Assembly (NCBI GenBank): GCA_015227615.1
Contig: JAALGZ010000027.1
Span: 62,001-126,000 of the forward strand
DNA from: Labyrinthula sp. Ha
Lineage: Eukaryota; Sar; Bigyra; Labyrinthulida; Labyrinthulaceae
DNA: 64,000 bases
Direction: 5' to 3'
Shown here piece after piece: positions 6,903 through 54,200 of the stretch. Under the pieces are notes generated by a model. It was not told the DNA's origin and ran no database searches. It saw only the letters and a list, made by a program, of their open reading frames with translations. Positions within the stretch are counted from its first letter, which is position 1. Every line of letters starts with the position of its first letter. The position numbers were made by a program, and so were the translations under genes.

Positions 6903-8210
6903 ATGGGATTACCCTCTTACCTGATATTCAGATTAAGATTTAAGAAGACAACGATGGATAAGTTTCATATGTTCCTGCTTGCTGTCATCATGTGCCTACT
7001 CTTATACGCTGGATACGCACCAAATATTTACAACCTCAGAAGCAAAACAAAACTAATAACGCACCAGACTCCAGCAATTCATTTTTCGGAAAGTACTAAC
7101 TGTTTGAATCTTTCATCTGCAGAAACGGATCGTGGATGTGATCGATTAGACTTTTATATAAAATGTTTATCTTCGGAATACAGAAAGCAATCATATAATT
7201 CAAATAAGCCGCTTATACACAAGTTAGATATGCCTACTCAAGGAATTGGACGTGTGTTTGAAACGGCTGCAAGAAGTGTATTATTGTCAGCTTTCTTCGG
7301 CAGACCTTTTCTCCTGGATTTATCTTCCCAAGACCCGTATTATTCTGTGAGAAGCTTTTTTGAGCCTCGAATGTTTGATTTTCGAATACTTGATGCAGAA
7401 AAACTTGACCTTGAAAATACTGAAAATTTTTTAGAAATGAAAATAACTCAAGAAGAAAAAGAAGAAAGAAATTCTCCTGGTTTTGAAAATAACTTTATTC
7501 ACAAGTTGAGGTCAGAGAAAGAAAAATACTTAATAAATAGAAATTTTGGAACTTTCAAAGGATTGGGTTGGGAGTCACTAAAACTTTTAAGGAAACCTTT
7601 GAAAAAGTTTCTTACAGGAGAAAAATCGGCTTTCGATTGCGAAGACGATTCTGCAACTCGTTTATTTAAACCTACTGATAGATTGTTAAATCTTTTTACA
7701 GAGCGACGAAAACTTTTATTTTCTCTTGGACAAAGTGAAGAAAACTTAGCATCTTTTCATATTAGAACGTATTTTATAAAGAAAAATAAAAGAAAATATA
7801 TTTTGGAGTCTGTACAAAAATGTTTGCTCTCTGAATTAACTTCTGGCATCTCAGTTATTTCAGTATTCAGCGATGAACCTAAAATATCGGGAGTAGTTTC
7901 TGATGAACTTGAACAGATATTTACGAATTTCTCTTTCAAGACTAATCTTGTCACAGAGCTAGAGAATGCAAAGTATTCTGCTGCTCATAGTGCTTTTGAG
8001 GCAACGAAGAAATCTTTGGATGATACTTCTTTGGGAACCACTATGGCTGATTTCTTTACAATGATGAACTCAAAGATTCTGTTTTATACACAAGGTGCTT
8101 TTGGTGAACAGGCGGGAAAATTTTATAACAAGAAATGTAGAAAAGCAGTATGTGGCACTGAAAATGTTATGTTTAATTTATGTATTAGAAAAAACCCGTT
8201 ACACTTTTAA
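6903..8210 (+). CDS. type II membrane protein, fucosyltransferase-like (GT-B) candidate, 435 aa
   Basis: The protein begins with a short basic cytoplasmic tail and one hydrophobic anchor (about residues 20-38), followed by a soluble lumenal region: the layout of a Golgi type II glycosyltransferase. Suggestive motifs are GIGRVFETAARSVLLSAFFG near residue 115, FHIRT (His286, Arg288), which resembles the HIRRTD-type donor-binding motif of alpha-1,6/O-fucosyltransferase folds, SDEPKI soon after, and near the C-terminus a segment (TMADFFTMMNSK then GAFGEQAG) like the conserved strand-loop of those enzymes. Cys pairs near the end are typical of a lumenal domain. Length suits the family. An alternative start is Met18 at 6954, which still keeps the anchor. 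Assignment rests on fold-level motifs only; it may be a lineage-specific glycosyltransferase or an unrelated Golgi protein. No introns seen; ends in TAA. Confidence 0.6.
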   Translation: MGLPSYLIFRLRFKKTTMDKFHMFLLAVIMCLLLYAGYAPNIYNLRSKTKLITHQTPAIHFSESTNCLNLSSAETDRGCDRLDFYIKCLSSEYRKQSYNSNKPLIHKLDMPTQGIGRVFETAARSVLLSAFFGRPFLLDLSSQDPYYSVRSFFEPRMFDFRILDAEKLDLENTENFLEMKITQEEKEERNSPGFENNFIHKLRSEKEKYLINRNFGTFKGLGWESLKLLRKPLKKFLTGEKSAFDCEDDSATRLFKPTDRLLNLFTERRKLLFSLGQSEENLASFHIRTYFIKKNKRKYILESVQKCLLSELTSGISVISVFSDEPKISGVVSDELEQIFTNFSFKTNLVTELENAKYSAAHSAFEATKKSLDDTSLGTTMADFFTMMNSKILFYTQGAFGEQAGKFYNKKCRKAVCGTENVMFNLCIRKNPLHF

Positions 8211-11200
8211 TTTTTCGTTGTAACTTATTCTATAATTTCCACGAACACTCTGTTGTAATTAGCCTTTATCTCCCTTGACAGTTGAGACTACCAAAACTGG
8301 TAATAAGATAGAAGATCCTTGTTTCCCGTTTCCCCTACTTAGTATATATTAATATTATACTAGTTTGTTTTTACTTATTTTTGGTAATATTAAGTGCTTT
8401 ATTTGTATACTATATGCGTTCAATGAGTGTAGTGTTCAATTATGAGCAAGTGATAATATAAAAAGTAGGTTGAGAATAGTAAGATTACGTTTAGAGTGTT
8501 GACAAGACCTTTTTGATGTTAAACTGATTTCACTTTTCAGCTATTTTGAGAAAAATATAGATACTTCCAAGAAGTAACTATAGCAATCAACGATTCTTTC
8601 TGTTTTGTTTTATCTTTGCCACATAAAATATAATCAGCAAATAATCTAGGAGCTGAAAGAGCTTCACTTCTACATTGCCAGAATCTTTCCTTGGTAAAGA
8701 AATGAGATTCGGAGGAACAAAGAAGTATGACAAATTTATCTTATCTTAAGATAATTGTAGCTATATTAAATTTAGGTTAAATTTTGAACTAGAAAGTATG
8801 ACTTGAAACCAGAGATCTCATTGTGACTTTCATGAAATTTTCAAGAGTCTAAGTTTGTTTAGGTCACCCCGTATAGACTCAAGTTTATATTTTATCTACC
8901 CATAAGGGTTCAGTGGCTTTAACTTCTACTTAATGCTCAAAATATTTCACAAGCCGAGAATAAACTTTAGCGCCTAGTGAGAATATAGAAATTCCGAATC
9001 ACAGTCAATACTCTGTACTACTTCTCCGCAGTGAAAGAGTAAATCACACAAGGTTACTAAATATTTAAGCTGCCATCCAATCACATTGGACTTATAAAAC
9101 CCTCAGAGAATTGATTTAGTTAAGTTTAAAAAGTTACTACCTCAAAAAATGAGTTGGTCAGATGAAAACTCTCTCAAATCATTGGAGCTACACTCAAAGG
9201 ATATTCCATCGGGCAGATAATAACAGCAAGAATAGGTTGTTTGATTCAAAGTTCTTGTATATACATTCAGAACCAGTCTAACCCAAAATATGTGAAAAAT
9301 AGAAAGAGACTTATTATCTTCTAGCTAAAATAATTAAAGTACCGTGAGATTCTTTGAATTGGAAACGGTTGTGCATTGGTTTAGTCGTAAGTTCAGTTTC
9401 AGTACGTGGACACCTTCACACACGTTGACGTTTTTCCTACTGTACAACTTATGTTTGAAAATTCACAATGGGATGAAGGTTGTTTTTATCCGACTAACTG
9501 GTCAGTGAAGGAGATGGGTTCTAAGTTTGGGAAGAATTTGTTTGGGAACCCATTTTTCTTACACCAGCGTAATTTACTCCACTGTTCCGTTAGGGATTCT
9601 ACAAGGATTTAAGCAAGGTGTACCAGTAACGATTTTTAGTGGAATTCCATAAAAGCTAACAGTAGCTTAACAGCAGAAACCCCAAGGCCCAATAGTATGA
9701 ACCCCAGACCATATACAAAATGTACAGGGGCGTGCAAAAAAGTGAAGTGCACTAGAAGGTAATAAGCAAGTAGTTAAACTTCAAAAATGGGAAAATGGAC
9801 AGCTGTTTTACCCTAGTATAGCGGGGAGCCTTTCATCCTCCCCGCCGCTTTAGAAGTGGCCCCCATTACTCGGCCCTCGAGGAAGAAGAGGATGGATTGA
9901 CAAACTTATCAATGTCTTGAAGATAGATACGCCCAAATATGTATAAAACTTTATGAAGATGTACTTGAGTAAAGTGCATAGAAGTTTAAGAAACTTAATT
10001 TTAAGTAATGAAATTGAGAAGGTTTAGATTCGTGCTAAGATTAAAATTTGCGTGTTCCTGATGTAACAGAAAATATTTTAAAATTGTACGTAGCTTGATA
10101 CTGAACTTTCTTTCCTTTTACCTATTGATTTTGAACTTTCCTTCCTTCTGTATCTTGATACAGAGTTTTTTTTTTGTCATTTTGTTTCTAATAGTTGGTT
10201 TTTGATTATTAATTTTGGGAAATTATGTTATTGGCATAATTGCAAGAGTGGCATAAATTGTGCTGGTGTAAATAAAAACTATCCCAATTTTTTGTTGTTC
10301 ACTCTTAATTTATTTTTTCAGCAGCTACAGTAATATGGAGCTGTATTGCCACTGACGCTAGAGCTTTAGGCATCCAGAGAGTTCTTCGAGTAGTTTGTCT
10401 AAGATAGAGCCCACCACCCAACTATATGAAATTAAAGAATAAGGAAACAAAATAGTGATCATGATATTTGAAAGAGTAGGAAAAATAACAAAACTCTCCG
10501 AAAGGAGAGAAAATAATAACATCCATTCATCTGAAAACACCTACGAGAGCCAAATAAAATTCTATTTGAGGAGAGAGAATGCTACTCATGTTCTCGTTAA
10601 ATAATTTGACCAACACACTACATTCCAATAAAAACAAAAACTAGTTATTTTAAAATGGTGTCAACAGTACTACCCTACAGAACCTATCAGTCCAGAAAGC
10701 GTTGATACTGTAAAATTTTATGTTTGACTCTTTTAGATACTTCCCAGTTTTCTGAAACGTTTTATACTTCAACTCTGAGTTATATTCAAGAATTGTTCTA
10801 CTTAGTTTTTATATAATATGCACTATGACATTATTCAAGATATTAAACTGATTCAAAGATTGTGCTTTCACCGGTATTAATCCTACCAGAATCTGAAACT
10901 TTACAATTCTAGCCATTAGAGTAGGGAATGTACTTTACCTTGACGATGGTATCACACAACTCTAGTGCTATGAATCACTTTATTGTCTTGAGAACCAAGT
11001 ACTTTGGCCTTCAATTGCTAGCATATCTTAGCAAGCCTGTAAACTGACCTTTTTATTTCAAGGTGATGACCTGTCTGTTAATGTGAAATATTTGGTGAAC
11101 GAGGTATTGGCAAATTATACTGGTTATTCGTGCTAAAGTTTACTTAAATACATTATTTTTAATTACCAGGCATGCGACTGTGGTTCACGACTAGGTCAAT

Positions 11201-13211
11201 GGATATTCAAGAATGTTTACTGCTGCTATTTTAAAGTAATTCCTCTTGTAGTTGTATTAGACAACAATGAAAATGCTGATATGAAAGCTGCAGGTATCCG
11301 CATTAAATTAGGAAAATACTCTTTCATATTTTTTTCTCGCAATATATCAACTTGATAGACCTCAAATTTAGACTTAAATAATATAAGATTAAACGTGAAA
11401 TTTGAGTTGAGTAGATCATGTCCTAACTAAAGTTTGCAAGTTCTAGGTATGCAGCGAGTATCAGCTGGAAATAAGTGCTGATGGTATATTCTACAGGATC
11501 AACTTAATAGAACTTAACCATTGCATATAAATAAAATTCATAGAACCTTTGAACGAAATTGAACACCATGCAAGAACTCGTAACCATGTATTGAAGACTT
11601 GGAATTATGCCAATTAAGGAAGGATCTAAGATTATAAATGACCAGCTCTTAAGAATACGATGTATCTTACTATTGAGAGTAAAGTAAGTATGTTCAAGAA
11701 GGCACCATATTGAAGAATTACAGCAGTAGCTTCCAACCGCTTTCCGACAACTCTACTCTTGTGAAGAAAAACTTTGATACCAGTATTTTGAGTCTTTTAA
11801 ATGAAGTTGAATTAGTTTTCCAGGCTTTAACATATGTTCTACTCTTGATAACATGATAACTTCCTATGGCTGTTCCCTGAGTCAAAAAAATGGACTTCTT
11901 GTGTCAGGTCTACCCTTGAAAGAAAACAACTTGTGTTTAAAAATGATAATTACTAGGTCTAAGATATAAATGTTTTTTGCTCAAGATATTTGCTTATGGA
12001 TTAGAAACTTAAGTGTTCTTAAGTTAATCAGAGTTGAGATTTTATGATCCGCAACAACATTAGGCTAAATGTGAACAAACTGTACTAGTGTTTAATGTAT
12101 TTGCTATAATGCTTTATGACTTTGCATTTTAATCGCAATGTCTCTATAGTACTTAGAAAGTGAGAAGAAACAGAAAATAAACAGCAGGAAAAAAGCATTT
12201 ATCAATGGTCATGCTCCGACCAAAGCACTCTAGTTAATTTTTCTTAATTTTCCATAGTCATAAGAATATAATTCAGCAACATAGAAAGACGAGAAAAAGG
12301 TTGAAAGGTACGTTTGGTTTAGTTAATGTACATTTTCATAATAAATGCTTTTGCTCTTCATTTAAAAGAAGTTTAAAAGTAACACTAAAGAGATTTCTCT
12401 ATATTGTTTAAAATGAATTCAAATTGAAGTTTCGAGCAATCAGACCATACAAGTTTTCAATGAGAACTAGACGATTTCATGAATCTGGTATGACCTGATA
12501 GCAGTTCAAATGGAAATAGAAAAATCCAATAAGTAGCTCAGCAAGGAATCCAACAAGGTTCATTTTTTCAGAAAATAGCAGATTGGGTCATACTCGGGCT
12601 TATGCATAGCAGTTAACATTTCTTCATCGCAAATAACCAATAATATAGAAGCAGAATGCGAGCAACAATACACAACGATTCTAAATGTGATAAATTTGTT
12701 ATCCTGACGTGTGTTGACTTAGGTTTGCTAAAACTTAAATTCCGAAATACTTGAAATAAACTCTAAAGAGTCAATACGAAAATTCTTAAGATTAAATTTT
12801 ATCATCACGTATATTTCGGGTGCTACTACCACGAAGCAAAGATCTCTTTGGAAACTTTTGACTGAGTGACATCACCAACTATCTAAGATGCACCTTGCTA
12901 TCTAGAAGGTGGAAGAAAAATTGTTAAAATCAGTATGGTTTGCTTTAACCTACTTAGATAAAGGTTTCTTTGTTTGAACACCCAGTATGGTTTTCTTTCT
13001 AAATTCCAAGGAGAGTTTTTCCAAGAAACATTCCATCGGACACTTCCGCCTAGTTCGAAAGGAACATTTCGCGAAGAAATTGGAGCATTGAAAGAACATT
13101 TTGGCAAATTTTGTACCGTAAGATCACATTAAGAAATAATGTCTATACTCAACATATGGAGTACAGAACGTTTTTGCGAATAAGAACTCAAAGACTTCCT
13201 TTGATTGTCAC
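8211..13211. other. intergenic region with weak coding-like fragments
   Basis: No convincing gene. Two stretches look slightly protein-like but match nothing I know: about 9400-9612 (+), a 68-codon frame without ATG, and about 12955-13135 (+), a frame of about 55 codons rich in Phe/Lys. A conspicuous GC-rich segment with a strong hairpin lies near 9790-9890 (listed separately). The rest is AT-rich and featureless. Confidence 0.5.
9818..9842. other. GC-rich perfect hairpin, possible structured RNA
   Basis: An 8-bp perfect stem (GCGGGGAG pairing with CTCCCCGC) closes a 9-nt loop. It lies in a GC-rich island that continues to about 9880, where a second small stem-loop (GCCGC/GTGGC around a 7-nt loop TTTAGAA) resembles an anticodon arm. 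The flanks lack a T-arm consensus and an acceptor stem, so this is not a normal tRNA. It may be an unannotated small structured RNA or a relic of an inserted element. The island contrasts with the AT-rich background. Confidence 0.35.
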
Positions 13212-13480
13212 ACATTATTGTATCACAGTATGACATTACTGCAAATATCGCCTAACAATTAATCAATCAAAGACACAAATTTACAAATTATTCATTGACT
13301 CTTATCTCAACAACTACTGCGAATAAGAACACGATATTTGCACCAATTTTAAGCTCTAAACTTGAACTTTAAGGTTCTGCAATTTTCTTGCGACTTGTAT
13401 AAATCTTTACTTAGTATACACCTTTTCTTTTCTCTCACTTAAGAGATATTGCACAACGTCCACGACGAAGCTTGAATGTC
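13212..13480. repeat. dispersed repeat, copy A
   Basis: About 270 bp, clearly similar to 43163-43430 in direct orientation. The best block is CAGTATGACATTACTG followed by CGCCTAACAATTAATCAATC, and both copies continue through TTTACTTAGTATAC and a GAAGCTT. This copy ends about 50 bp before a decayed reading frame starting at 13534, so it may be the promoter/5' leader of a multicopy gene family rather than a transposon. Confidence 0.75.
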
Positions 13481-41500: not shown

Positions 41501-43162
41501 TTAACTAACACTTCAAGCAAGATATTCCCGATGTTTCCATCTAATGCAAGTTTAGTTTACTTTATTATTAATTCGTGCCTTGCTTTTAAAATACCTAAGA
41601 TAATTTGAAAATAAGATTTTCGGTATCTAAATCTTATCGGCTGTCATTGCTCTTAACCAAAATAATATGATTTAACTGTGATATTAGTTTATCCCTATCC
41701 ACAAGATATTCTGTTGCCCCAAGTTCCTATACTTTAAATAAAACCATAAGAACTTGTCTACGGTTTTACATATTTGTTAGCAAAATCCAAGGGTTTCTTA
41801 AAGACAGAGCCCACTTTCTTACAACTTTATCGCATAGGCAGAATTATACTTTTTCCTTCTGTAATATATTTAGAGTAAATTATTTTGTTGCGTTGCAGAA
41901 TGTTGCCGTAATTAGCTGTATATTCTAAGAAATGCTTCATACAAACTTGAAGTAATGACCCCAACACACGTATATATCAAATAATCAATAATATTAACAT
42001 TGCAAGATTCGTCAATAGAAACCTTTAGAAGTTATATAGTTTCCTTGGCATTGTGTATTCATTCAAGAGAAAGTTTGATTATGCGTCTTTGGGAATAAAA
42101 CCTGGGCTTAATAAGCTTTCATTCGTAATGATTTTAAGCTGCACAAATAAATATAGAAATTTTGCTGTTACGCGATTTAGTAGCGGTTTGTCTTTTTCTC
42201 TTACAGTGTATTATACATGCATATGTAAAACATTTTTTGCAACCTGTACTTCTTCGGTAAGCATAATCCATCTTACGTTATTTAAAATAATTCGGTGCTT
42301 ACATTGTACCATATATAAGTTGCTGCGCCACACAGTAGATAATGAAACTAAGTATATATATTAGGAAATGATACTATAGGATATCTTGACTTAAGTTAAA
42401 AGTATGAATCTTCATAGCTATAGTAAGCGGTATTTGTTGATCTGAAAAGTTAAAAGCATATTTAATTTGAAGTTAGGAGTCTGTGCAATTACTAACGAGA
42501 AAATGAAACCAAGAAAACTTCAAAATAAATAAATACCAATTAAATAAGTTTAACTAATATATTTGAGGACTAGAATACACTTTTAAAAGCAATGTATCCT
42601 ATCAGTTTTAAAGAGGTGAGGTCATTAGGCAAGTTTATGAGATTTTCAGACATCATCAATTTCTCAAGAGTGTGTATACTTCTTAATCCATTTTTTTACA
42701 AAGTGAAAAGAAATATATATGAAAACAGGAAATTTCTTAGAAGAAAATATTTGATGCATCTATCCAACATCCAGAAGTGAGGGCGCTATACAGCGATTGA
42801 TAATAACATATTCTTTTTTTTTGCTTTGTACGACGGATGAAACTACCTGGTGCAAACCTACTAATGTATATTAAAACATTTTAAGATTGGTTTTAGTCAA
42901 TAATAACAAGGGTAATTTACTACAAATGTAAGAAACTCTTTCAATTTAGGACAAAAACCTTTAAGAAATCTGTACCTACGTTCTTTATGGCATTTGGACA
43001 AATTCGTTTTGTCATAGATATCATCAATTCCTATAGTTTTAGATAAATAGAACTTTCACTAAATTTTTAATTAAGATATATAGTTTAATGTTGCTTAATT
43101 ATTAACACTATTATCATTGATGTTATCAGTGTTTCCACAAAAAACTTTCTTTTGATAGTTAT
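38572..43162. other. gene-poor AT-rich region
   Basis: Only isolated frames of 60-105 codons (for example 42053-42364 +, without an ATG start) and none with motifs or sustained coding character. No tRNA, mobile-element hallmark or additional copy of the LTR was seen. Confidence 0.55.
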
Positions 43163-43430
43163 ATATTATTTTGTTGCAGTATGACATTACTGTAAATACC
43201 GCCTAACAATTAATCAATCAATTCAAAACACAGATTTGCAAATTATTCGTTGACGCATATCTCAACAGCCACTACAAGTTAGAAGATGATATTTATAAGA
43301 ATTAGAACTTTAAACTCTAACTTTAATCTTCTCCTTGTTTCTTGCTAATTATCCCAATATTTACTTAGTATACTCCTCTTATTTTATTTTCTCGCAATTT
43401 TCTATTACATTCTTAGTGAAGCTTATGAAG
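43163..43430. repeat. dispersed repeat, copy B
   Basis: Direct-orientation relative of 13212-13480, with many substitutions and small indels. The shared blocks are listed under copy A. Unlike copy A it is not followed by a recognisable reading frame, so the gene it may once have preceded is gone or diverged. It ends about 1 kb upstream of the retrotransposon. Confidence 0.75.
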
Positions 43431-44403: not shown

Positions 44404-44897
44404 TGTGTAGATTTAATTGTTAAGGTTTTAGATTACTTGGGCAACTTAAGTAACTCAGTGAATAATATGTAGTAGTTAGGTTATTGTTAACAGTTTGGTT
44501 ACTTGTGCTAGTTAATTGAAGACCTATAGAATAATTATAAATAAAATAGATATCACCTTTGTATTTTGGGCGATCAAAAACAGATTTAATAGTTAATAAT
44601 AAAAGAACGTGAGAACTTGTTATCTTCGTTTCAGAAAACAGTTTCACATAGAATAAAAACCCCTGAGTGCTATCAGCGCCTTGTGAGTTTGGATAAGAGA
44701 GATATAGGAAGATATCTCTGCGTGTGGCTTGAATAGAGCTCAGCGTTTAGTTTTGTGAAAGGATCCCTTAGGAATAAGAGCGATCTGCCCGTATCTTTTG
44801 GCATCATTGGATACGATCAAGCACAGTTGCTTTAGAGCTCGTCGTTGCAACTTATCCTTGCAAGTCTGAACGCTCGAGGGTTTTCCGAGTGTACAAA
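44404..44897 (+). repeat. 5' LTR (494 bp)
   Basis: Begins TGTGTAG and ends TGTACAAA, aligned end to end with 53707-54200; I count three substitutions and no indel. The canonical TG...CA ends would stop at 44895, but both copies share two further A residues. A TATA-like TATAAATAAAA lies at 44536-44546, which would start transcripts in the middle of the LTR. The gag ATG lies only 20 nt beyond the LTR. Confidence 0.95.
44536..44546 (+). promoter_or_regulatory. TATA-like element in the 5' LTR
   Basis: TATAAATAAAA sits about 130 bp into the LTR, a usual position for the U3 promoter. The same sequence is in the 3' LTR. Two of the three LTR differences fall just downstream. Confidence 0.5.
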
Positions 44898-44911
44898 TTG
44901 TTATAACAATT
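44898..44911 (+). other. primer-binding-site region with 12-bp palindrome
   Basis: The 20 nt between LTR and gag ATG contain the perfect palindrome TTGTTATAACAA (44898-44909). No TGG-initiated complement of a tRNA 3' end begins at the LTR edge; the first TGG is at 44919, inside the gag start. Priming may use an internal tRNA fragment or self-priming. Confidence 0.35.
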
Positions 44912-44917
44912 CCTCAG

Positions 44918-47755
44918 ATGGCGGGGAAGAAAAGCGATAAGGGCGCAGCAAAGCCACCTCCCAGATCAGCGAGGCATGCTGCCGCCGCGCAGACTCCCGT
45001 GAGGGAGGTCGTTGGAGGCAACGTTCCAGGTTCTCAGGAACGGGTTACCTCGGGTGTATCGGACCGTGAGGTCACGATCGTAAATCCGGTAACGGGTGCG
45101 CAAACGCAATCTCGGATAACTGCCGGAGCTGAACCCAGTTCCACATCTCAAGGAGCTGGTTCGGTCCCAGTGAGTATGCATCAAGATACTCAAGCGACAT
45201 CTGTGTCAACACGAAGCGCTCCGGTGGGAGCAAGAGCTGCGGGATCAGCTGAAACAAATATAGAAACCGTTCCAGCGGCTGAAAATACTGGATCAGCGGT
45301 ACGAGAAGCACAGGCTATTCCGCTGCCTGCCGGCTCACAAGCTAGAGCTGGGGGCAATACCACTGTGACTCGTCATGGTGTGTCTGGGGTGACGAGCAGT
45401 GATGCTCCGTCAGCGGCCATTCCTGCCCGCCCCGCGGCAAGCACTGTTCCTGCAACTGGTGGCAGAAGTTCTAGACCTGTTGAGCGGGTTGAAGCTTCAA
45501 CTCAGAGTAACGTCTCTGGGGCTACTGCAGCGAGGGGACGTGGTGCTGGAGCACCTCTGGGATCCCCCCAAGTGCCGGTATCTGTAACCTCTACCCCTCC
45601 GTATTCTATGAATGCACCTTCTGCTCAATTATTGAATCCTCCGGACACGCAAGCCCATGTGGTGGAAACTCAGGTAGATACAAACATTGGGTATGGAGAG
45701 AGGGATGCTGAAGCATACCAACCAATGGAGACTGAATCTGTTAGATCCTTAGAGGTCGTAGATTTCGAGGAATCCGAGGTTGAAGGTTCTGTTGGTCCTG
45801 ACAGGGATGGGAATCGTATTCCGAGAGCGAATCAAGGAATACGAACTGGTAGAGGCGCATCGCGTCGAAGTGCGCGAGCCTCGATGAACCTAACCACCCT
45901 GGCCAGAGACAATGGTTCGGACAGATGGTATGATGCCGTTGTCAATGCCATTGACCGCGCAAACATCAGTACGAACCATAGGAGCATGGAGAGGCAGCCT
46001 CTTAGTATTCGTGAGAGAAGGCACTTTGAAAATATGACGGAAAATTGGTTGTCGCTTAACCCTGAGCAACAAGCAATAGAGTACGCCGCAGAAGTCGCCA
46101 TAAACGCTAGAGCTTCTCGAAACGAAAGGTTGGCTAGACATGCTCTCTTGAAACAGAAAACAGGGGGAAGGGAACCATATACGTTGGACCCGGTACCCAA
46201 GGTCTGTTTGTCTACGGATGACCCACAACATCGAGGAATACTTGATGGAATGGATATGTCTATCTTCGACAACTGGCCGGTCATGAGCGACGCGATGGAT
46301 AAAGCTTATCCCATTATTAAAATGAATTATGTTAATTCACAGGATAGTGCGGAGTTCATGGCCATAATGAGTAACTCGATGTATAAGTTGAGTGAAAAGC
46401 TTAAGGATTTGGCTAGGACATCGGATGTGTTGTTCGCTGAGAATAAGACTCTAAGGGCGTTAGTTATGAAACTGTCCTCGAGTCCCCCCGGCAACACGTC
46501 TAATAGTAGGCCAAGGTATCCTAAGCCTCAACTGTTGACGGCTGAGACAATGTCTATAGAGACCATCAACCAGTTCCTTCATGTTTCAGAAGCGGCTGAA
46601 AAGATGGATCCTATGTTCAAGCCTGAATTATACGTTGATCGGAACCTTTTGGACGACTTGTGTCCAACTGGGGAGTTTACTCAGATCCTAATGGTATTGA
46701 GGGAGCGTAGAGATAGGCTACTTGCTGAAACTACGGATATACCAATGAGTGCTTTGGAGAAGTTGAAGTGGCCTAACAGTGGCACTTCGCTACAGAACTT
46801 CACAAAGTTTTTCCAGAGCATTCGGAAGGTCATCAAAGAGCAATACGTTATGCGTATTGATAACCATGAGAAGGCTAACCTCTTTGAGATGATAGTTAAG
46901 AAATGCCCTAAGGAGATGCAGATGACTAGGGAAATCATAGCTAATAAGATTTCAGCTAATGTGAACCCTCTGTCCACGCTACATGCTCTCCAGAAAGCCC
47001 TTGAAACTCAGCGACAAGCGGCGATTGACAGGGGTGAGAAGGCACAATATGGGCCTGATTATTTGCCAACAAGTGCAAACGCGTTGGTTGTGGGGAGCGA
47101 ACCCCTTGAGACTAAATCGCAAAGGCGCAGAAAAAGGAAGGCGCTTGCTATGCAGAGGCAGCTGATGCAGGGCCAGGGGAATACCAACTATATGGCAACT
47201 ATTCAATGCTACAGATGCAAAGAATACGGCCATTACTCCCGAAACTGTCCTAATGCAGCGAATACACCTCGTAAGAGAGCAAGTTTGCTTAAACAAAAGG
47301 TTAAGCCGAAACGAGAAGTCCTTAGTGACGACTCGAGTGATGTTCAATACATCACTACCAAAAGGCCGCCTTTGGTGAGGACTTTCATTGCTAAGTCAGT
47401 GAGTCCTAGGCCCTGCGAAGGCATGCAGGTATTCAACCATGAGTTCAAAGAAATCAAAGACGCGATGATGGACTCAGGTGCGGATGCCGTAGTAGCATCT
47501 TATGGCAAACACGGAAGTTTTTGCAAAGATGTGAAGGATGCTGAAGGGCAGGTAACCTCCGCCAACGGGACGATCAGTCCTGTTGTCAAGGTTGGACGTA
47601 TTGACCTCAACGTCTTTAAAAATGGTAAATTGAGGCGGAAAGTACATGGCCAGCGTGTACTATTAGTGGCTGGGGACTGGGATTATTTCTTAATCGGGAA
47701 GCCAGCACTAAGAATGATGCATTTGTTACCCGAGCAAAATATGGAGCTCGGGTAG
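44918..47755 (+). CDS. gag: Gag-protease polyprotein segment of the retrotransposon, 945 aa
   Basis: The first ~300 residues are Ser/Thr/Ala/Gly-rich and disordered. A helical capsid-like region follows (about 330-720), then a CCHC zinc knuckle CYRCKEYGHYSRNC at residues 764-777, which binds RNA, and an aspartic protease with DSGA at about 852-855 near the C-terminus. The frame ends at TAG 47753-47755 between protease and RT, so Gag-Pol needs a way past this stop. Start: first ATG after the LTR, in the context CCTCAGATGG. Gag this long is unusual, mainly because of the disordered N-terminus. Codon use is GC-richer than in host genes. Confidence 0.9.
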   Translation: MAGKKSDKGAAKPPPRSARHAAAAQTPVREVVGGNVPGSQERVTSGVSDREVTIVNPVTGAQTQSRITAGAEPSSTSQGAGSVPVSMHQDTQATSVSTRSAPVGARAAGSAETNIETVPAAENTGSAVREAQAIPLPAGSQARAGGNTTVTRHGVSGVTSSDAPSAAIPARPAASTVPATGGRSSRPVERVEASTQSNVSGATAARGRGAGAPLGSPQVPVSVTSTPPYSMNAPSAQLLNPPDTQAHVVETQVDTNIGYGERDAEAYQPMETESVRSLEVVDFEESEVEGSVGPDRDGNRIPRANQGIRTGRGASRRSARASMNLTTLARDNGSDRWYDAVVNAIDRANISTNHRSMERQPLSIRERRHFENMTENWLSLNPEQQAIEYAAEVAINARASRNERLARHALLKQKTGGREPYTLDPVPKVCLSTDDPQHRGILDGMDMSIFDNWPVMSDAMDKAYPIIKMNYVNSQDSAEFMAIMSNSMYKLSEKLKDLARTSDVLFAENKTLRALVMKLSSSPPGNTSNSRPRYPKPQLLTAETMSIETINQFLHVSEAAEKMDPMFKPELYVDRNLLDDLCPTGEFTQILMVLRERRDRLLAETTDIPMSALEKLKWPNSGTSLQNFTKFFQSIRKVIKEQYVMRIDNHEKANLFEMIVKKCPKEMQMTREIIANKISANVNPLSTLHALQKALETQRQAAIDRGEKAQYGPDYLPTSANALVVGSEPLETKSQRRRKRKALAMQRQLMQGQGNTNYMATIQCYRCKEYGHYSRNCPNAANTPRKRASLLKQKVKPKREVLSDDSSDVQYITTKRPPLVRTFIAKSVSPRPCEGMQVFNHEFKEIKDAMMDSGADAVVASYGKHGSFCKDVKDAEGQVTSANGTISPVVKVGRIDLNVFKNGKLRRKVHGQRVLLVAGDWDYFLIGKPALRMMHLLPEQNMELG

Positions 47756-47783
47756 GAAAGCGGCAGCCAGGTTAGCTACCTGG
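47753..47783 (+). promoter_or_regulatory. Gag-Pol stop with downstream hairpin: candidate readthrough signal (or 24-nt mini-intron)
   Basis: The TAG is followed, after 11 nt, by a 6-bp stem CCAGGT (47767-47772) and ACCTGG (47778-47783) around a 5-nt loop, with a second CCAGGT copy downstream that could compete or form a pseudoknot. A stop plus a short spacer plus a stem is the layout of retroviral readthrough sites. Alternatively a GT-AG segment 47752-47775 (24 nt) would splice out the stop and keep the frame. It is less T-rich than the host introns found here. Confidence 0.45.
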
Positions 47784-49978
47784 TGGGCCAGGTAAATTCG
47801 GGATCTAGTTTTCTATGTTATAAATATATAAATAATGTAAATTGGCTAAGTAGAAAACTAGGGTCTTCAGTTTGGCCCAACGTAGTTATGTTAATCGTAG
47901 ATGTAATTAAAGTTAACAGTGTATTTCAATATATGAGTTTTCACCAATACGAGTTATTGGAGTACATCCGCATTTTACGTTGGGGCAGGGGTGGATCGTC
48001 CTTAAAGATCCGTAGATATTACCTTTTTGGTAAGAATATTGACCAGAGTAAGGTCGTTAGACAAAAGCAGAAAGATGTTCTGCTTGTGAAAGGTGGTCTA
48101 CCTGAGGAACTTGATCGGGTGATACAGATGCTTTCGCTTCTGCAGGGCGGAAGTGTCAACGTATTTCCCAAGATCAAGGTTCGAGAGGATGGACAACTTT
48201 TTCGGAGAGAGCAAAAGACCATGGTTGTGGTGGGTCAGCTGATCACTGACGAGCAACATAGTCTTATCAACTACCTGCAAAGGGACGCCTTAGCGGGTGA
48301 TAGCAAGTGGCTATCGGACTACCATGAGCATATGGTGGTAGGTGACTCCTTCGCACACTACCTTGCTGAGGTCAGGCAGGCAGTGGAAGCCCAGAGAGTG
48401 GGGCTGACGAAGGTGGAAGTCCCCGGGATGTTGTGGGTACGCAACACCGCGACTAGTGTTGACTTAGTTGAGAGAATAAACACCGGTGATACCTCCGGTA
48501 TCGACTTTGGAGAGGTCATCCGATTGAAAAGGCATGTGGAAGACATCGCCGATGATGACTTGGGTGATATATTGTTGCCCGATGTGGATGAAGAAGTGGA
48601 CCCGGTCTCTGAGGAGATAGAGATAAAGGAAGCTATATCATCTATGATCTCTAAAGCAACGGATGCCTCGATGGAGATGAGGGAGAAGTTGAAAGCTTTA
48701 TGCTTGGAGTACTGGGATGTGTTCGCGACGGACCATTCGCAGACCCGCATAAGTGAGCTAGAGCCTATGCCCGTGTTCCCGTTGGAGAATTACGAGTTCA
48801 AGTACCCCAGAGTTAGGCCGACATCTGCTGAAAAGAGCAGATTTATAAAGGAAAAACTTATGAGTATGGAGAAAAGGAAGCTCTTGAAACTAGTGCCGGC
48901 TGCGGAATTCGGTTCCATAGTCTTTGCCGTTCCTAAGAAAGGAAACAAACTTAGGATGGTAGTTGATTTAGTCGACGTGAATAAAATTTTGCGTCGCGAT
49001 GTTAATCAGCTACCCTTTTTGGAAAAGAGTTTCGAAAATCTCGCTCAAAGCAAGTTTTATGCTTCATTCGATGTGGTGTCAGGGTTTGACCAGCTCGGCA
49101 TCACCGAAGAAGCGAAGAAGTATTTCAATATAGTGTCCGAACATGGGACCTACCAGTTGAACTTCGCACCCATGGGATACCACTCGACCCCCGTGTTCTT
49201 CCACCAGCAGATGGTGAAGCATGTGGTGGGCAGAGAAGTCGAGGGTAGACATGGTCATGGCATCATCCAGTGGATTGATGACAGTCTGATCTACGCAGAC
49301 AACTTTGATAATTTCATCAAAGTATTGAAGGGATTCTTTGAGAACCTTAGGAGGGTTAAGGTGAGGATCAGTCCTCAGAAATCTACCATATTCTCGACCA
49401 AGATTAGTTATTGCGGAAGAGAGGTAGAGGGGGGAAGGTGGAACTTTAACAAGGAGTATTATGAGAAAATACTCGAGGTTCCGAGGCCGGAGTTTGTGTA
49501 TCAACTCGCGGCGATACTTCATCTTGCGCAATGGCTGTCGCTAGCCATACCGAAGCTCGGGGAGCTTAGGGGTAAGGTTATGGCTAAGTACCCACAAATG
49601 AAGGGGGAAAAGTCTGACCTGAAACGCAAGAACGAACGTATCGAGTGGTCGGACGAGTTGTCTGACGACTTCGAGGAGTTCAAAAGGATCTTGTCTATAG
49701 CGGCGAAACAGAAGCTACAGACTTATGATCGTAACCAGGATTTGTTACTGGTGACAGATGCCAGCAAGGAATACCATAGCGCTATAGTATTTCAAGCTGG
49801 GTCATCTGAGAGAAGTAAATCATTGTTAAAGAAGACAATGTTTCCTATGATGTTTTTCTCTGGTAAGTTTGCCGAAGATCAACAGAGATGGGGTATCGTT
49901 CATAAGGAACTGTACCCGATTGTGAAGACGTTCAGTCGTCTTTCATATTTACTGCCATATCATCCAACACCGATATAG
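47756..49978 (+). CDS. pol: Pol segment 1: reverse transcriptase and most of RNase H
   Basis: In the same frame as gag. The first ~80 codons are AT-rich and look unlike the rest of the element. RT motifs follow: VPKKGNKLRMVVDLVDVN, SFDVVSGFDQLGI, NFAPMGYHSTP, and the catalytic box QWIDDSLIYAD (49268-49300) in which Trp replaces the usual Tyr of YxDD; the two Asp are codons 49277 and 49280. RNase H begins with LVTDAS (Asp at 49757) and VHKELYPIVKTF. It is interrupted by TAG at 49976-49978, one codon before the last catalytic segment VYTDH. Pol copies element RNA into cDNA. The stop makes this copy defective unless read through. Confidence 0.9.
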   Translation, partial: ESGSQVSYLVGQVNSGSSFLCYKYINNVNWLSRKLGSSVWPNVVMLIVDVIKVNSVFQYMSFHQYELLEYIRILRWGRGGSSLKIRRYYLFGKNIDQSKVVRQKQKDVLLVKGGLPEELDRVIQMLSLLQGGSVNVFPKIKVREDGQLFRREQKTMVVVGQLITDEQHSLINYLQRDALAGDSKWLSDYHEHMVVGDSFAHYLAEVRQAVEAQRVGLTKVEVPGMLWVRNTATSVDLVERINTGDTSGIDFGEVIRLKRHVEDIADDDLGDILLPDVDEEVDPVSEEIEIKEAISSMISKATDASMEMREKLKALCLEYWDVFATDHSQTRISELEPMPVFPLENYEFKYPRVRPTSAEKSRFIKEKLMSMEKRKLLKLVPAAEFGSIVFAVPKKGNKLRMVVDLVDVNKILRRDVNQLPFLEKSFENLAQSKFYASFDVVSGFDQLGITEEAKKYFNIVSEHGTYQLNFAPMGYHSTPVFFHQQMVKHVVGREVEGRHGHGIIQWIDDSLIYADNFDNFIKVLKGFFENLRRVKVRISPQKSTIFSTKISYCGREVEGGRWNFNKEYYEKILEVPRPEFVYQLAAILHLAQWLSLAIPKLGELRGKVMAKYPQMKGEKSDLKRKNERIEWSDELSDDFEEFKRILSIAAKQKLQTYDRNQDLLLVTDASKEYHSAIVFQAGSSERSKSLLKKTMFPMMFFSGKFAEDQQRWGIVHKELYPIVKTFSRLSYLLPYHPTPI

Positions 49979-52117
49979 GTGTATACGGATCATATGAACC
50001 TTAGGGCCATAATTAAGGGAGGATCCAGAATAAACCATGGACACCTTAATAGGCTACAGAGGTGGGTGCTAACTTTACAGCAGGCTCAAGTTGAACTTTA
50101 CCACGTAGATGGTGAAAGTAACATCTTTGCCGACATGCTGTCGAGGTGGGCAGCCCGGGTCGAGAGGAAAGACCAGGAAATTAAAGCTGCTATGGCTTTG
50201 GTTAGGGATCCTCCTCCGGAGTCTTTGGACACAGGGGAGCGTAACTTCTACAGAAAGATGTTCGTATCGCCTACCAACCAGGAGCTTGAACAGCTGAGGG
50301 AAATGGTTCCTGAAGCACCCGATGATATCGAGGTTAAGTCGATGCTTGGCCAAGATAGCTTCGATACTTGGTATCTCGACGATGATGTCAAGTACGAAAC
50401 TCGCCAAGATGGAGGCCTAACATTCGCAAGGAAGCCTAGAGAAAAGGTTCGAGAGGAGTTTCTTCTCAAGGATGTCGATGAGTCAGCGGTGACCTTCGAT
50501 GATATCTTTGATTGGGAAACAGAACAAGCCGAGTACGAGGAATCTTCGGGTCCAACGATCGAAGATCTTGGTACTGCAACCGAAGATGATGAAATACTCA
50601 GGATCACGGTGAGCGCTGTCAGACTGAACCCGAATAAGCAAAGGGAGAAAAGAACGTATGAACAGATGAGAGCCTTCGATAAGGATCGAGTCTCAGCGTT
50701 CAACCCATATTATGAAGGTTCGTGGAAGCGCATCTCTGAGGCCGAACTGCTTGATGGTCAGAAAGCTGAAGGACTTGGCGATGGCATCAAGCTGGCAAGA
50801 GCCGGCGACAAGGTTGTGATACCTGAAACTCTTTTTGAGAGACAGATGGTTCATATTCACCTTGCGGGTCACCATGGACCGGTGAGTGCCTGTGTAGCGG
50901 AAGCTTCGAAATACGCATGGGTCATCCCTGAGACATATGGTGAAGGGGCAACTTTACGGAGCATCTTTCAAGATCTCAAGGTGAATTGCGCTCACTGTCG
51001 AAAGGGACCTTCCTTATTGAAGACCGCGTTGAGCATAGTCACTGAGGCTAGGGCTCCGAGGGAAGTGTTAGTGTCCGACTACCTGTATGTTAACCCGAAG
51101 GGATACATACTCGTACTAACGGATGCCTTCTCAAGGTTCACCTACTTAAAGTATGCACCGAAGGCTAATGCCGAGACGGTGGTAGCTGCTTTAGAAGACT
51201 TTAATAGTAATTGGAAGTTAGAATCGAACTTCACCTTGGTGACAGATCGAGGATCTCACTTCGCTAACCAAGTGTTAGAAAAATTGAGTAAGGCCCTTGG
51301 TTTCACCCACAACTTTGCGGTAAGTTACGCAAGTTGGACGAATGGTGAAATTGAAGTGGTACACAAAAAGGTACTTGACTTCTTGAAAGCCCTGGTATCA
51401 GAAAGAAGATACCAATGGGATGAATGGCCCTTGGTACTGGGTACTATACAGGCGGCAATGAACGAGTTACCTATCATGTCTAGGAAACTTCCAGGAGAAA
51501 GTAAGGCGCCTTGTGCGAACCAACTCTTCCTGTTCATAAATCCTGAGAAGGATTATATCGAGGCCGCTGCTTTTCCGAGGTTGATCTCGAGAAAGGTAGG
51601 TGGGGAAGTGAGGGTAATAGATACTGATGTGGATACTTTGTTTAAGTTGTCGAAGAATTTTCGAGATCAACTCGATGAGTATCAGTGTCGGGTTGCTGAC
51701 TATGTGTCTCTGATGAAATCTAAAAGAAATGCCTACTGGAATAAAAGGAGGAAGCGTTTTGATAAGGCTTTGCTCCAATATCAGGTAGGTGAATGGTGTC
51801 TCATTAGCACTGCTAAGACGCCGAGAGAGACTAACAAGATTAAGCTTGAGTGGTCTGGCCCTGTATTGATACAGGAGGTACTTAGTAATAATGTGTACCG
51901 GGTGCGACTCTTGAACGGTATGATCTTAACGGTTCATGCTTCAAGGTTGTATTTTTACGAGCCCTCAGGGTACGTGCCGGATGATGCATTGAGAAAGATC
52001 TTCATTAATAATTGGGGTGAGCTTGAAGTGGAAAGATTCCATGGATTGCGGTACTCTAATGGAGAATGGTGGTTACATGTCCACTGGAGAGGATTCGAAT
52101 CTCGAGATGATACTTGA
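49979..52117 (+). CDS. pol: Pol segment 2: end of RNase H, integrase, start of chromodomain
   Basis: Continues in frame from the TAG with VYTDHMNL (final RNase H Asp). The integrase zinc site is HIHLAGHHG...CAHC (from about 50855). The catalytic triad is Asp at 51077, Asp at 51245 and Glu at 51353, with exactly 35 residues between the last two (D,D35E). A GPY/F-like module follows (LEWSGPVLIQEV...VHASRLYFYEP), then the chromodomain from about 52021 (LEVERFHGLRYSNGEWWLHVHWRGFES). It ends at TGA 52115-52117. Integrase inserts the cDNA, and chromodomains of such elements direct integration to marked chromatin. No ATG is expected at 49979, because the codon after the stop is GTG. Confidence 0.9.
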   Translation: MYTDHMNLRAIIKGGSRINHGHLNRLQRWVLTLQQAQVELYHVDGESNIFADMLSRWAARVERKDQEIKAAMALVRDPPPESLDTGERNFYRKMFVSPTNQELEQLREMVPEAPDDIEVKSMLGQDSFDTWYLDDDVKYETRQDGGLTFARKPREKVREEFLLKDVDESAVTFDDIFDWETEQAEYEESSGPTIEDLGTATEDDEILRITVSAVRLNPNKQREKRTYEQMRAFDKDRVSAFNPYYEGSWKRISEAELLDGQKAEGLGDGIKLARAGDKVVIPETLFERQMVHIHLAGHHGPVSACVAEASKYAWVIPETYGEGATLRSIFQDLKVNCAHCRKGPSLLKTALSIVTEARAPREVLVSDYLYVNPKGYILVLTDAFSRFTYLKYAPKANAETVVAALEDFNSNWKLESNFTLVTDRGSHFANQVLEKLSKALGFTHNFAVSYASWTNGEIEVVHKKVLDFLKALVSERRYQWDEWPLVLGTIQAAMNELPIMSRKLPGESKAPCANQLFLFINPEKDYIEAAAFPRLISRKVGGEVRVIDTDVDTLFKLSKNFRDQLDEYQCRVADYVSLMKSKRNAYWNKRRKRFDKALLQYQVGEWCLISTAKTPRETNKIKLEWSGPVLIQEVLSNNVYRVRLLNGMILTVHASRLYFYEPSGYVPDDALRKIFINNWGELEVERFHGLRYSNGEWWLHVHWRGFESRDDT

Positions 52118-52324
52118 GAACCTCTCAGATCTATGTATAGAGATGTCAAATCACTTGTCATTAAATACTTAGAGAATCAGAGGAAGTCTGTAAGAGATAA
52201 GAGAAACTCGAAGAGGGCTATGGCCTGGATCGAGAGACATATCCTAGGCGATATCAACGTTAGGTGGGTTGGTAAGATGAGACCTAATCTAAGATCACAT
52301 CTTCTAGTTGAAGGTAACTGGTGA
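52118..52324 (+). CDS. pol: Pol segment 3: C-terminal helix of chromodomain and linker
   Basis: Same frame, directly after the TGA. The residues on either side of the stop (DDT, stop, EPLRSM...VKSLVIKYLENQ) fit the chromodomain signature T-W-E-P plus C-terminal helix, so the TGA occupies the position of the conserved Trp. The rest is a basic linker (QRKSVRDKRNSKRAMAWIERH). It ends at TGA 52322-52324. As translated separately it would start at Met 52133, but it is better read as an interrupted continuation. Confidence 0.75.
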   Translation, partial: EPLRSMYRDVKSLVIKYLENQRKSVRDKRNSKRAMAWIERHILGDINVRWVGKMRPNLRSHLLVEGNW

Positions 52325-53467
52325 GAGGAACGAGAGGCTGTTCCTTTCTACGTGAAAAATTGGTCTGGGTTGGACAAATTTGCTATGGGATGCCTCGTAA
52401 AATGCTTTGGTATGGGCGACTTTGAGTCGTTTATAAAGTTCATGCCGCATAAATCGAAGGCAATGATGTACTCATATATTCAGAGAACTATGGGAATCAT
52501 GAGCTTGGCTGGATTTAATGGTAGAAAATTTGATATAGCTACAAAGGATCGAGAGCGGGAGTATAATTTTCCGGTGGAAAATATTCTGTGTTCGTGGAAG
52601 TATGATTCTTTTGAGACGGCGAAGTCATTGATGAGCTTTGTAATACCGGAGGGTGCAGGGAGAGCATTCTGCCGACAAGTAGAGAGGATGCAGTCAAGAG
52701 CAAGGCAGGATGTTTCTAAGGTGAGAGACTGCTTGCAGGAGTTGACTGAAGTGAAAGGTTTATGGCTAGAGATCTCGAGATATGTGTTCGAGGGGGTATC
52801 TTTTGTGGGTAACCCTGAAGGATATATTTTGGATGACCGTAGAACTGTAACTTTGGTAGAAACTGTAGAAAATGTTCAAATAAGTAGTGAGAGTATAGAG
52901 ACGAGCTCCGACTTAAGAATATTTATGCAAGTAGACAACATAGGTAACTTCACTTTAACTAAACTGTATGACAATATATTTGACTTGTCGAGCGAGTTGT
53001 GGCCTTTTTCGGTAAAGGTCTGCATATTCCCTAGAGAAAGAACTTGGTATTTTGCTGATATTTATGAAGGAGATACCGTTGCTTCATGGCCAGGTGATGA
53101 GGTAGATCTTCTCCTCTTCGATCCACCATGGGCCACTGGAACCTTTAATCCTGTGAGAGGAATCCGAACTCGGTATCCTAAATGCAAAGATTCTGAGGTC
53201 CTCGATATACCTTATGAGAACATGAAGCCGGCATTCATTGCTATCTGGGTTATCGAAAGGAATCTAGGCAGAACCTTACAACATTTTGACGAGCACCAGT
53301 ATGACTTAGTTAACATAGTTGACTGGATTAAATGTACCAAGTCAGGGGTCTTGCGTACATCCTTGGGTTATTACTTCCAACATTCAGCAGAAATGTTACC
53401 TGTGTTTGTATCTAGGACTAAGAAAAAGAATGTTCTTGATAAGATTCATAAATTAAGGGAGACATAG
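52325..53467 (+). CDS. retrotransposon cargo: SANT/Myb-like segment plus MT-A70 adenine methyltransferase core
   Basis: Still in the same frame. Residues just after the stop (KNWSGLDKFAMGCLVKCFGMGDFESFIKFMPHKS and YIQRTMG, in separate blocks) have the spacing of a SANT/Myb helix trio. About 200 residues of unrecognised sequence follow. Then comes the MT-A70 Rossmann core: VDLLLFDPPW (DPPW at 53120-53131, the S-adenosylmethionine/adenine catalytic motif), IAIWVIERNLGRTLQHF, YDLVNIVDWIKCT, GYYFQHSAEMLPVFVS. These line up in order with METTL3/METTL4-type proteins, which make N6-methyladenine in RNA or DNA. A TAG at 53465 interrupts the domain. I know of retroelements that captured cytosine methyltransferases; an MT-A70 cargo in a Ty3 element is, to my knowledge, undescribed. 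Confidence 0.85.
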   Translation, partial: EEREAVPFYVKNWSGLDKFAMGCLVKCFGMGDFESFIKFMPHKSKAMMYSYIQRTMGIMSLAGFNGRKFDIATKDREREYNFPVENILCSWKYDSFETAKSLMSFVIPEGAGRAFCRQVERMQSRARQDVSKVRDCLQELTEVKGLWLEISRYVFEGVSFVGNPEGYILDDRRTVTLVETVENVQISSESIETSSDLRIFMQVDNIGNFTLTKLYDNIFDLSSELWPFSVKVCIFPRERTWYFADIYEGDTVASWPGDEVDLLLFDPPWATGTFNPVRGIRTRYPKCKDSEVLDIPYENMKPAFIAIWVIERNLGRTLQHFDEHQYDLVNIVDWIKCTKSGVLRTSLGYYFQHSAEMLPVFVSRTKKKNVLDKIHKLRET

Positions 53468-53692
53468 TTATTGTGGGCTGATCGCTTAGACAATGGTGTA
53501 AAACCTTTGAAGGCTTATGAGTATTTCGAGTCAATATTTGGAAGGAACACTCTCAAGGTTGAGCTTTTCGCGAGATGCTGCAACTTGCGAAGAGACTGGG
53601 TTCAATTAGGATTCGAAGTCGATCCTCGATCAAGTGGGGTTGCTTTTGGCTGTGGGATGTCGACTAATGGAAAAGAGGTACACCTCTTTTAA
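53468..53692 (+). CDS. C-terminal part of the MT-A70 domain
   Basis: Continues the frame after the TAG. ADRLDNGVKPLKAYEYFESI corresponds to the family's R-x-x-S-x-KP-x-E-x-Y-x-x-IE segment. LKVELFARCCNLRRDWVQLG is the terminal strand motif (E-L-F-A/G-R then W...G) found in MT-A70 proteins; ELFAR is closer to METTL4-like than to METTL3-like sequences as I recall them. The frame ends at TAA 53690-53692, which overlaps the polypurine tract. Because both halves of the fold are needed, the TAG at 53465 should inactivate a protein that terminates there. Confidence 0.85.
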   Translation, partial: LLWADRLDNGVKPLKAYEYFESIFGRNTLKVELFARCCNLRRDWVQLGFEVDPRSSGVAFGCGMSTNGKEVHLF

Positions 53693-53706
53693 GGTGAGAA
53701 GGGGGA
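53691..53706 (+). other. polypurine tract
   Basis: A purine run (one T) ending GAAGGGGGA directly abuts the TGTG of the 3' LTR, the expected plus-strand priming site for reverse transcription. Confidence 0.8.
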
Positions 53707-54200
53707 TGTGTAGATTTAATTGTTAAGGTTTTAGATTACTTGGGCAACTTAAGTAACTCAGTGAATAATATGTAGTAGTTAGGTTATTGTTAACAGTTTG
53801 GTTACTTGTGCTAGTTAATTGAAGACCTATAGAATAATTATAAATAAAATAGAGATCATCTTTGTATTTTGGGCGATCAAAAACAGATTTAATAGTTAAT
53901 AATAAAAGAACGTGAGAACTTGTTATCTTCGTTTCAGAAAACAGTTTCACATAGAATACAAACCCCTGAGTGCTATCAGCGCCTTGTGAGTTTGGATAAG
54001 AGAGATATAGGAAGATATCTCTGCGTGTGGCTTGAATAGAGCTCAGCGTTTAGTTTTGTGAAAGGATCCCTTAGGAATAAGAGCGATCTGCCCGTATCTT
54101 TTGGCATCATTGGATACGATCAAGCACAGTTGCTTTAGAGCTCGTCGTTGCAACTTATCCTTGCAAGTCTGAACGCTCGAGGGTTTTCCGAGTGTACAAA
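53707..54200 (+). repeat. 3' LTR (494 bp)
   Basis: Matches 44404-44897 throughout, with three substitutions: two close together just after the TATA-like box and one before the CCCCTGAG block. The shared end is TGTACAAA. Confidence 0.95.

Follow-up and report, generated by a model that had tools for sequence, protein, structure and literature searches.

A p1-like Myb module and a putative AMT1/MTA1-type MT-A70 methyltransferase at the C-terminus of pol in Ty3-type retrotransposons of Labyrinthula sp. Ha

The window analysed here is a stretch of 64,000 nucleotides from Labyrinthula sp. Ha (contig JAALGZ010000027.1, positions 62,001 to 126,000, forward strand). Positions 44404-54200 of the window hold a young Ty3-type long terminal repeat (LTR) retrotransposon, whose LTRs are identical at 491 of 494 positions by self-BLAST and which is bounded by a 4-bp target-site duplication (TSD), GAAT. 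Past its chromodomain-like stretch, a further coding segment, here called the cargo, continues in the pol frame inside both LTRs and finishes at a stop at 53690. An earlier note, made from the sequence alone, had placed an MT-A70 methyltransferase domain on an LTR retrotransposon at this point, and the LTR pair, the TSD and the Pfam, Protein Data Bank (PDB) and fold matches bear it out. The motifs that it listed, DPPW, IWV, DWIK and ELFAR, lie within both LTRs at 53120-53131, 53243, 53321 and 53561. It had described the segment as an MT-A70 domain in frame with pol. The domain is there, but it is preceded by a p1-like Myb module; the frame is shared, but in this copy it is not open throughout, being interrupted by stops at 49976, 52115, 52322 and 53465 in addition to the gag/pol boundary stop at 47753. 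Several sister copies are open where the window copy has its inner stops, and an alternative genetic code was dropped as their explanation for that reason.

The Pfam MT-A70 profile (PF05063), which the earlier note had proposed as a check, matches window positions 52325-53464 with E = 6.5e-9 and 36.4 bits against a cut-off of 23.9. Past the stop at 53465 the rest of the profile is matched weakly (E = 0.2), and a sister copy without these stops has the full domain at E = 3.5e-17. In four further elements analysed whole, L061 (family A, that of the window element), L062 (family B), L063 (family C) and L064 (family D), the profile scores 63-127 bits, over the cut-off. A PDB sequence search with the window piece returned five sequences at E ≤ 10, all of them MTA1 chains (best E = 5e-14). 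The 11 top Foldseek matches of an AlphaFold model were likewise MTA1 chains, down to E = 1.9e-12, with Tetrahymena MTA1 the best. The model is of the sister copy L003, not the window copy, and has a mean predicted local distance difference test score (pLDDT) of 59, with about 80 in the p1-like helices, mostly 70-90 in the methyltransferase part (loops near 45) and largely below 50 in the linker. Structure-level support, whose absence the earlier note had named as grounds for doubt, was thus found alongside that from sequence.

The earlier note called the domain m6A-type, after the RNA modification N6-methyladenosine. All 16 element domains compared, which were representatives picked by hand, give better scores with Tetrahymena MTA1 and the host AMT1 than with METTL3 and METTL14, and the preference for MTA1 over METTL3 holds in 16 of 16 when the references are trimmed to an equal start. 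As judged by sequence, the cargo enzyme is nearer to AMT1/MTA1, of the DNA N6-methyladenine (6mA) type, than to METTL3, of the RNA m6A type. The MT-A70 part of the label stands, and the remainder should be read as 6mA (AMT1)-type. METTL3 bears CCCH zinc fingers N-terminal to its MT-A70 domain; Pfam gave no CCCH zinc finger match in L061-L064 at E ≤ 0.1. The METTL3-METTL14 writer shares the MT-A70 fold with the cargo but has the lower sequence similarity in all 16 comparisons, and we know of no p1-like partner for it.

The segment ahead of the MT-A70 domain resembles the DNA-binding MTA1-complex subunit p1. A profile built from 17 element sequences and the host AMT1 (18 in all) matched p1 in the PDB at E = 1.3e-19; the p2 chains followed at E = 0.002 on the p1-like stretch, a match that we read as reflecting a shared Myb/homeobox fold, and other Myb proteins scored 13-19 bits. 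With an N-terminal profile of family A and its sister, p1 was the sole significant match (E = 1.2e-5, p1 residues 24-89; next PDB protein 0.034), and a profile of families C and D gave p1 at E = 2e-25 over residues 22-158 (next 0.04). By these profile matches the segment shares with p1 a homology that goes further than a generic Myb domain. A genome search with the Tetrahymena p1 stretch returned two separate host p1 genes at the top and other places mostly in elements. Among 150 listed p1-like matches, 100 directly precede a PF05063 match, against one upstream and none on the opposite strand as controls. This count, first 105 of 150, was redone against PF05063 alone, the cargo query used earlier having contained both halves.

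The genome searches cover the 50.8-Mb, 153-contig assembly that holds the window. The cargo protein found 112 places, of which 19 (the window included) match over nearly the whole length at 87% identity or more; further families lie near 37% and 25% identity. PF05063 gave 354 candidates and at least 150 scored places, all over the cut-off, and none in 14 control genomes. Among the 150 places listed, the surrounding frame reaches 1000 amino acids (aa) or more in 53 and 1700 aa or more in 33. Cargo and PF05063 places together come to at least 232 on 79 contigs, fragments included, some of them matching the p1-like half only, as the cargo query holds both halves. For 88 of 150 listed rve integrase matches, cargo or MT-A70 follows downstream at a distance of 982-2212 bases on the same strand as the integrase, with none upstream and one on the opposite strand. 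PF05063 alone gives 36 of 150 (upstream none, opposite strand one), a lower count that goes with the PF05063 places listed, among which the window's own family is mostly missing. The remaining 62 integrase matches have no listed cargo; six of them, picked by hand, all have the Ty1/copia order, with integrase before reverse transcriptase as read from the frames. By similarity to element pol or by reading of the frames, 59 of the 60 loci L001-L060 are on mobile elements; the remaining one, L038, is the host AMT1 gene. Other genomic copies with the cargo after pol, which the earlier note had proposed to look for, are therefore numerous, and they include four families with LTR pairs and long frames.

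LTR pair identity is 94.5% in L061, 99.3% in L062, 97.5% in L063 and 96.5% in L064. Four of the five elements (window and L061-L064) have a 4-bp TSD; L061 has none. Pol and cargo form a single frame of 1988 aa in L061, 2061 in L062, 2358 in L063 and 1797 in L064, with gag also in frame in families B and C; the L061 cargo has a frame shift in its last residues. Pfam recognizes reverse transcriptase, RNase H, rve and MT-A70 in L061-L064, all over their cut-offs except rve in L064. The Ty3 order of reverse transcriptase, RNase H and integrase is found by Pfam in the window, in L061-L064 and in the metagenome polyprotein P0008 described below (rve under its cut-off in L064 and P0008). The chromodomain passes its Pfam cut-off in L062 (25.5 bits against 25.1) and falls under it in L061, L063, L064 and P0008; genome-wide, 148 Chromo matches are over the cut-off. 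Families C and D are the closest pair in reverse transcriptase (59%), integrase (48%), p1-like module (42%) and methyltransferase (51%), the pattern that joint descent of cargo and pol would give.

The cargo is under purifying selection, nearly as tight as that on the integrase. In family A the median ratio of nonsynonymous to synonymous substitution rates (dN/dS) of the whole cargo is 0.096 (136 of 136 pairs among 17 of the 19 copies, L013 and L018 being left out), and in other groups it is 0.13-0.18, from 27 of 28 pairs in group A', 13 of 28 in C and 22 of 36 in D, the rest having dS ≤ 0.02 or being saturated. By segment, 16 family A copies (without L004, L013 and L015) gave 0.063 for the integrase-chromodomain part, 0.087 for the p1-like part, 0.080 for the linker and 0.094 for the MT-A70 part, with 78, 119, 118 and 105 of 120 pairs kept after those below 70% identity or with low dS were dropped. 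The pairs behind all of these medians are not independent. A part on which the element's cycle depends would be expected to show constraint close to that of the integrase.

P0008 is a protein of 3045 aa on a 9.9-kb metagenome contig from the source 'lgn'. Reverse transcriptase, RNase H and MT-A70 exceed their cut-offs in it, and the matches to zinc knuckle, protease, rve and Chromo (24.9 bits against 25.1) fall under theirs. Its architecture indicates that a similar arrangement exists in at least one other source. A protein search with the L064 region found two proteins, one from EukProt at 95% identity and the other from 'lgn'; a further search with the 'lgn' protein found only itself. The window piece matched six proteins, all from EukProt and with MAKER-style names, which are probably from this species or a near one. 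Viral contigs of IMG/VR (L065-L144, the best 80 of at least 228 relatives) carry MT-A70 proteins that share about 25-34% identity with the cargo, and reverse transcriptase, integrase and p1 queries at 1e-3 had no match in those best 80 loci. Prokaryote contigs searched with the host AMT1 gave 18 pattern matches and no relative.

The host has its own AMT1 gene (L038), separate from the elements and matching MTA1 at E = 4e-73, and two p1 genes, L151 (C1:1284470) and L152 (C100:135979), which are 42 and 44% identical to Tetrahymena p1 and 54% to each other. According to published work, p1 and p2 are required for MTA1-complex activity (PMC9852454), p1/p2 co-occur with AMT1, and 6mA accompanies transcribed genes in AMT1-bearing eukaryotes (PMC12695648). 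Like that complex, the element has an MT-A70 catalytic domain nearest MTA1, with DPPW in most copies, and a Myb module homologous to p1; the complex consists of separate proteins, whereas the element has a p1-like and an MTA1-like part in one chain at the end of pol. The element would thereby join a relative of the DNA-binding partner to the catalytic part, and it appears to carry a fused core of a 6mA writer.

DNA methyltransferases on retroelements are already known. Retrotransposons with cytosine methyltransferases occur in dinoflagellates and charophytes (PMC5890265) and have been assigned to Ty3/gypsy and DIRS clades (PMC6338049). They resemble the present elements in having many copies and a retroelement polyprotein with a DNA methyltransferase, but theirs is a cytosine enzyme, whereas the one here is of the MT-A70 adenine type and has a relative of its DNA-binding partner attached. 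Some DIRS elements also carry an adenine methyltransferase, a bacterial-type Dam-like enzyme (PMC5890265, PMC6338049), in place of which the present elements have MT-A70 together with an rve integrase. A Sola1 DNA transposon of Ectocarpus carries ParB and a DNA methyltransferase (PMC12477816); it too is a mobile element that links a DNA-binding domain with a base methyltransferase, but the DNA-binding domain is unrelated and the gene lies apart from the transposase. In searches of the open-licence text of PubMed Central (bioRxiv being outside that scope) we found no report of MT-A70 on any retroelement, nor of MT-A70/AMT1 with p1 on Ty3 elements. DIRS elements use a tyrosine recombinase; Pfam lists neither this nor a Dam-type domain in the window or L061-L064, where MT-A70 and rve are present instead.

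We propose, with a probability of about 0.5, that a clade of chromodomain Ty3-type elements carries a p1-like Myb module and an AMT1/MTA1-type MT-A70 domain at the pol C-terminus to mark its own DNA for permissive chromatin. The cargo protein would enter the nucleus with the integrase, and the p1-like module would bind the element's own DNA, either complementary DNA or a fresh insertion. The MT-A70 part would then methylate adenine at ApT, perhaps with the host MTA9, so that the new copy bears the mark of transcribed genes and silencing is escaped or delayed. Such a mark would favour permissive chromatin because AMT1-dependent 6mA goes with transcribed genes in the species surveyed in PMC12695648. 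The earlier note had named both the element's RNA and its DNA as possible targets; the closeness to AMT1/MTA1 and the p1-like fusion favour DNA and lower the case for RNA. In a wider reading, to which we give somewhat less than an even chance, the clade turned the ancient writer core of AMT1 and p1 into a single-chain, self-licensing tool that marks its copies in advance as active, the opposite of silencing, in more than one host lineage.

Several observations weigh against marking of the element's own DNA. The cargo's methylation activity and its DNA substrate are predictions. MTA1 and METTL3 tie in the fold comparison with the cargo model, and p1 is absent from the fold matches listed for L003, the lists being filled by the methyltransferase part. 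The margin is narrowest in L063, at 107 bits for MTA1 and 106 for METTL3 with equal-length references. Our MT-A70 tree, a check that the earlier note had suggested, holds no METTL4, AMT6/7 or AMT2/5 rows; it pairs P0008 with the host AMT1 (support 94/94) but does not recover the elements and AMT1 as one clade, nor does it resolve the deep branches that would bear on a single origin of the cargo. DPPW is found in 43 of the 60 loci, the host AMT1 gene included, DPAW in 14, and another or no motif in three; in family D, DPAW replaces DPPW in 14 of 15 loci (L031-L037, L039-L044, L055). Catalysis may be altered or lost in these copies, whose products may have weak activity, no activity or a partner role; the median dN/dS of the family D methyltransferase part is about 0.15. 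The linker between the p1-like and MT-A70 parts has no assigned fold in the predicted structure. MTA1 acts together with MTA9, which is itself inactive; no MTA9-like part was found in the element, and the host genome was not searched for MTA9 or p2. PMC12695648 reports that 6mA is not enriched over transposable elements in the species studied there, which says nothing of this genome but argues against a general rule.

The replacement of DPPW in family D would also fit a cargo that tethers the element to DNA or chromatin and guides integration together with the chromodomain, its methylation being incidental or lost. The cargo adjoins the integrase and chromodomain, and its p1-like part is of the DNA-binding type. 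We nevertheless consider a tether unlikely, since most family A, B and C loci retain DPPW and the family A methyltransferase part is constrained as much as the p1-like part. A cargo that writes m6A on the genomic RNA of the element, with effects on stability, packaging or translation, would suit the MT-A70 fold; it is quite unlikely given the 16 of 16 sequence comparisons, a partner module related to a subunit of a DNA complex, and the lack of a Pfam match to a CCCH zinc finger in L061-L064.

Action in trans would have the cargo re-mark or disturb host 6mA or competing elements, or enter mixed complexes with host MTA9 and p2. The host retains AMT1 and two p1 genes, so that shared partners are plausible, and an anti-DNA-virus role has been proposed for retrotransposon-borne methylases (PMC6338049). 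The embedding of the cargo in pol argues instead for use in the element's own cycle, and we find trans action very doubtful. Chance capture of a host gene by one copy, or an assembly artefact, might be suspected from the in-frame stops of the window copy, and the earlier note had raised a lone host-gene insertion. We give this practically no credence, given the repeated cargo-bearing relatives, at places spread over 79 contigs, the four families each with its own LTRs (and TSDs in three of them and in the window copy), the selection on the cargo and the similar polyprotein from another source.

MT-A70 families were described as relatively static in eukaryotic evolution in a 2025 survey (PMC12695648). 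This one genome, by contrast, has at least 150 MT-A70 matches, nearly all of those examined being on mobile elements. If the enzyme is active, the elements would offer a natural system for the effect of 6mA on chromatin and for self-marking of an element as active. Structural and biochemical studies of 6mA may also gain a simpler enzyme in the fused p1-MTA1 chain.

Table 1. Features of the window retrotransposon (positions in the window)
Feature	Position	Strand	Evidence
5' LTR	44404..44897	+	self-BLAST, 491/494 matching 3' copy
Perfect 16-bp palindrome across LTR/internal junction, at expected primer-binding site	44896..44911	+	
gag open reading frame; zinc knuckle PF00098 at aa 763-779; ends at TAG 47753	44918..47755	+	Pfam
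pol part 1: RVT_1 (E 2.6e-17, ~48929-49420), RT_RNaseH_2 (E 2.9e-9); in-frame TAG 49976	47783..49978	+	Pfam
pol part 2: RNase H end, integrase (rve E 1.3e-10, ~51050-51328), integrase C-terminal region, chromodomain start; in-frame TGA 52115	49979..52117	+	Pfam
Chromodomain-like stretch	51990..52160	+	aligned to L061, a sister copy (Chromo E 0.012, under Pfam cut-off)
p1-like Myb module, relative of MTA1-complex DNA-binding subunit	52349..52550 (about)	+	family profile against PDB
Linker, low confidence over most of its length in L003 model	52551..53100	+	predicted structure
MT-A70 domain, cut by TAG 53465 in this copy	53105..53617	+	Pfam, PDB sequence search, Foldseek
Cargo frame end (TAA 53690) and polypurine tract abutting 3' LTR	53690..53706	+	
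3' LTR, then TSD GAAT	53707..54200	+	

In three elements gag and pol share a frame and are split by a single stop (TAG at 47753 in the window, TAG at 3429 in L061 and TGA at 2110 in L064), the arrangement of a read-through gag-pol; no such stop occurs in L062 or L063. Pfam shows no protease match in the window copy, whose gag frame has DSGAD at 47471-47485, presumably the retropepsin motif. In L063 and L064 a retropepsin-like DSGA stretch, with a Pfam score under the cut-off, is found in the C-terminal third of pol, after the p1-like part and ahead of MT-A70, and not before the reverse transcriptase.

No transfer RNA primer-binding site beside the 5' LTR was seen by eye in the five elements, the host transfer RNAs not being compared. 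All five, from four families, have a perfect palindrome of 14-18 bp across the 5' LTR/internal junction, at 566-581 in L061, 1085-1100 in L062, 518-531 in L063 and 672-689 in L064 (Table 1 for the window). Among control points, palindromes of that length were reached at 3 of 1719 in the window and, for L061-L064, at 1 of 260 per element, and the junction palindrome suggests self-priming.

The 3' LTR of L062 abuts an open reading frame at 7563-9341, which we take to encode a dihydroorotate dehydrogenase, so that this copy sits beside a gene start. Outside the window element, a 240-base repeat occurs at 13196-13431 and 43147-43385 with 77% identity.
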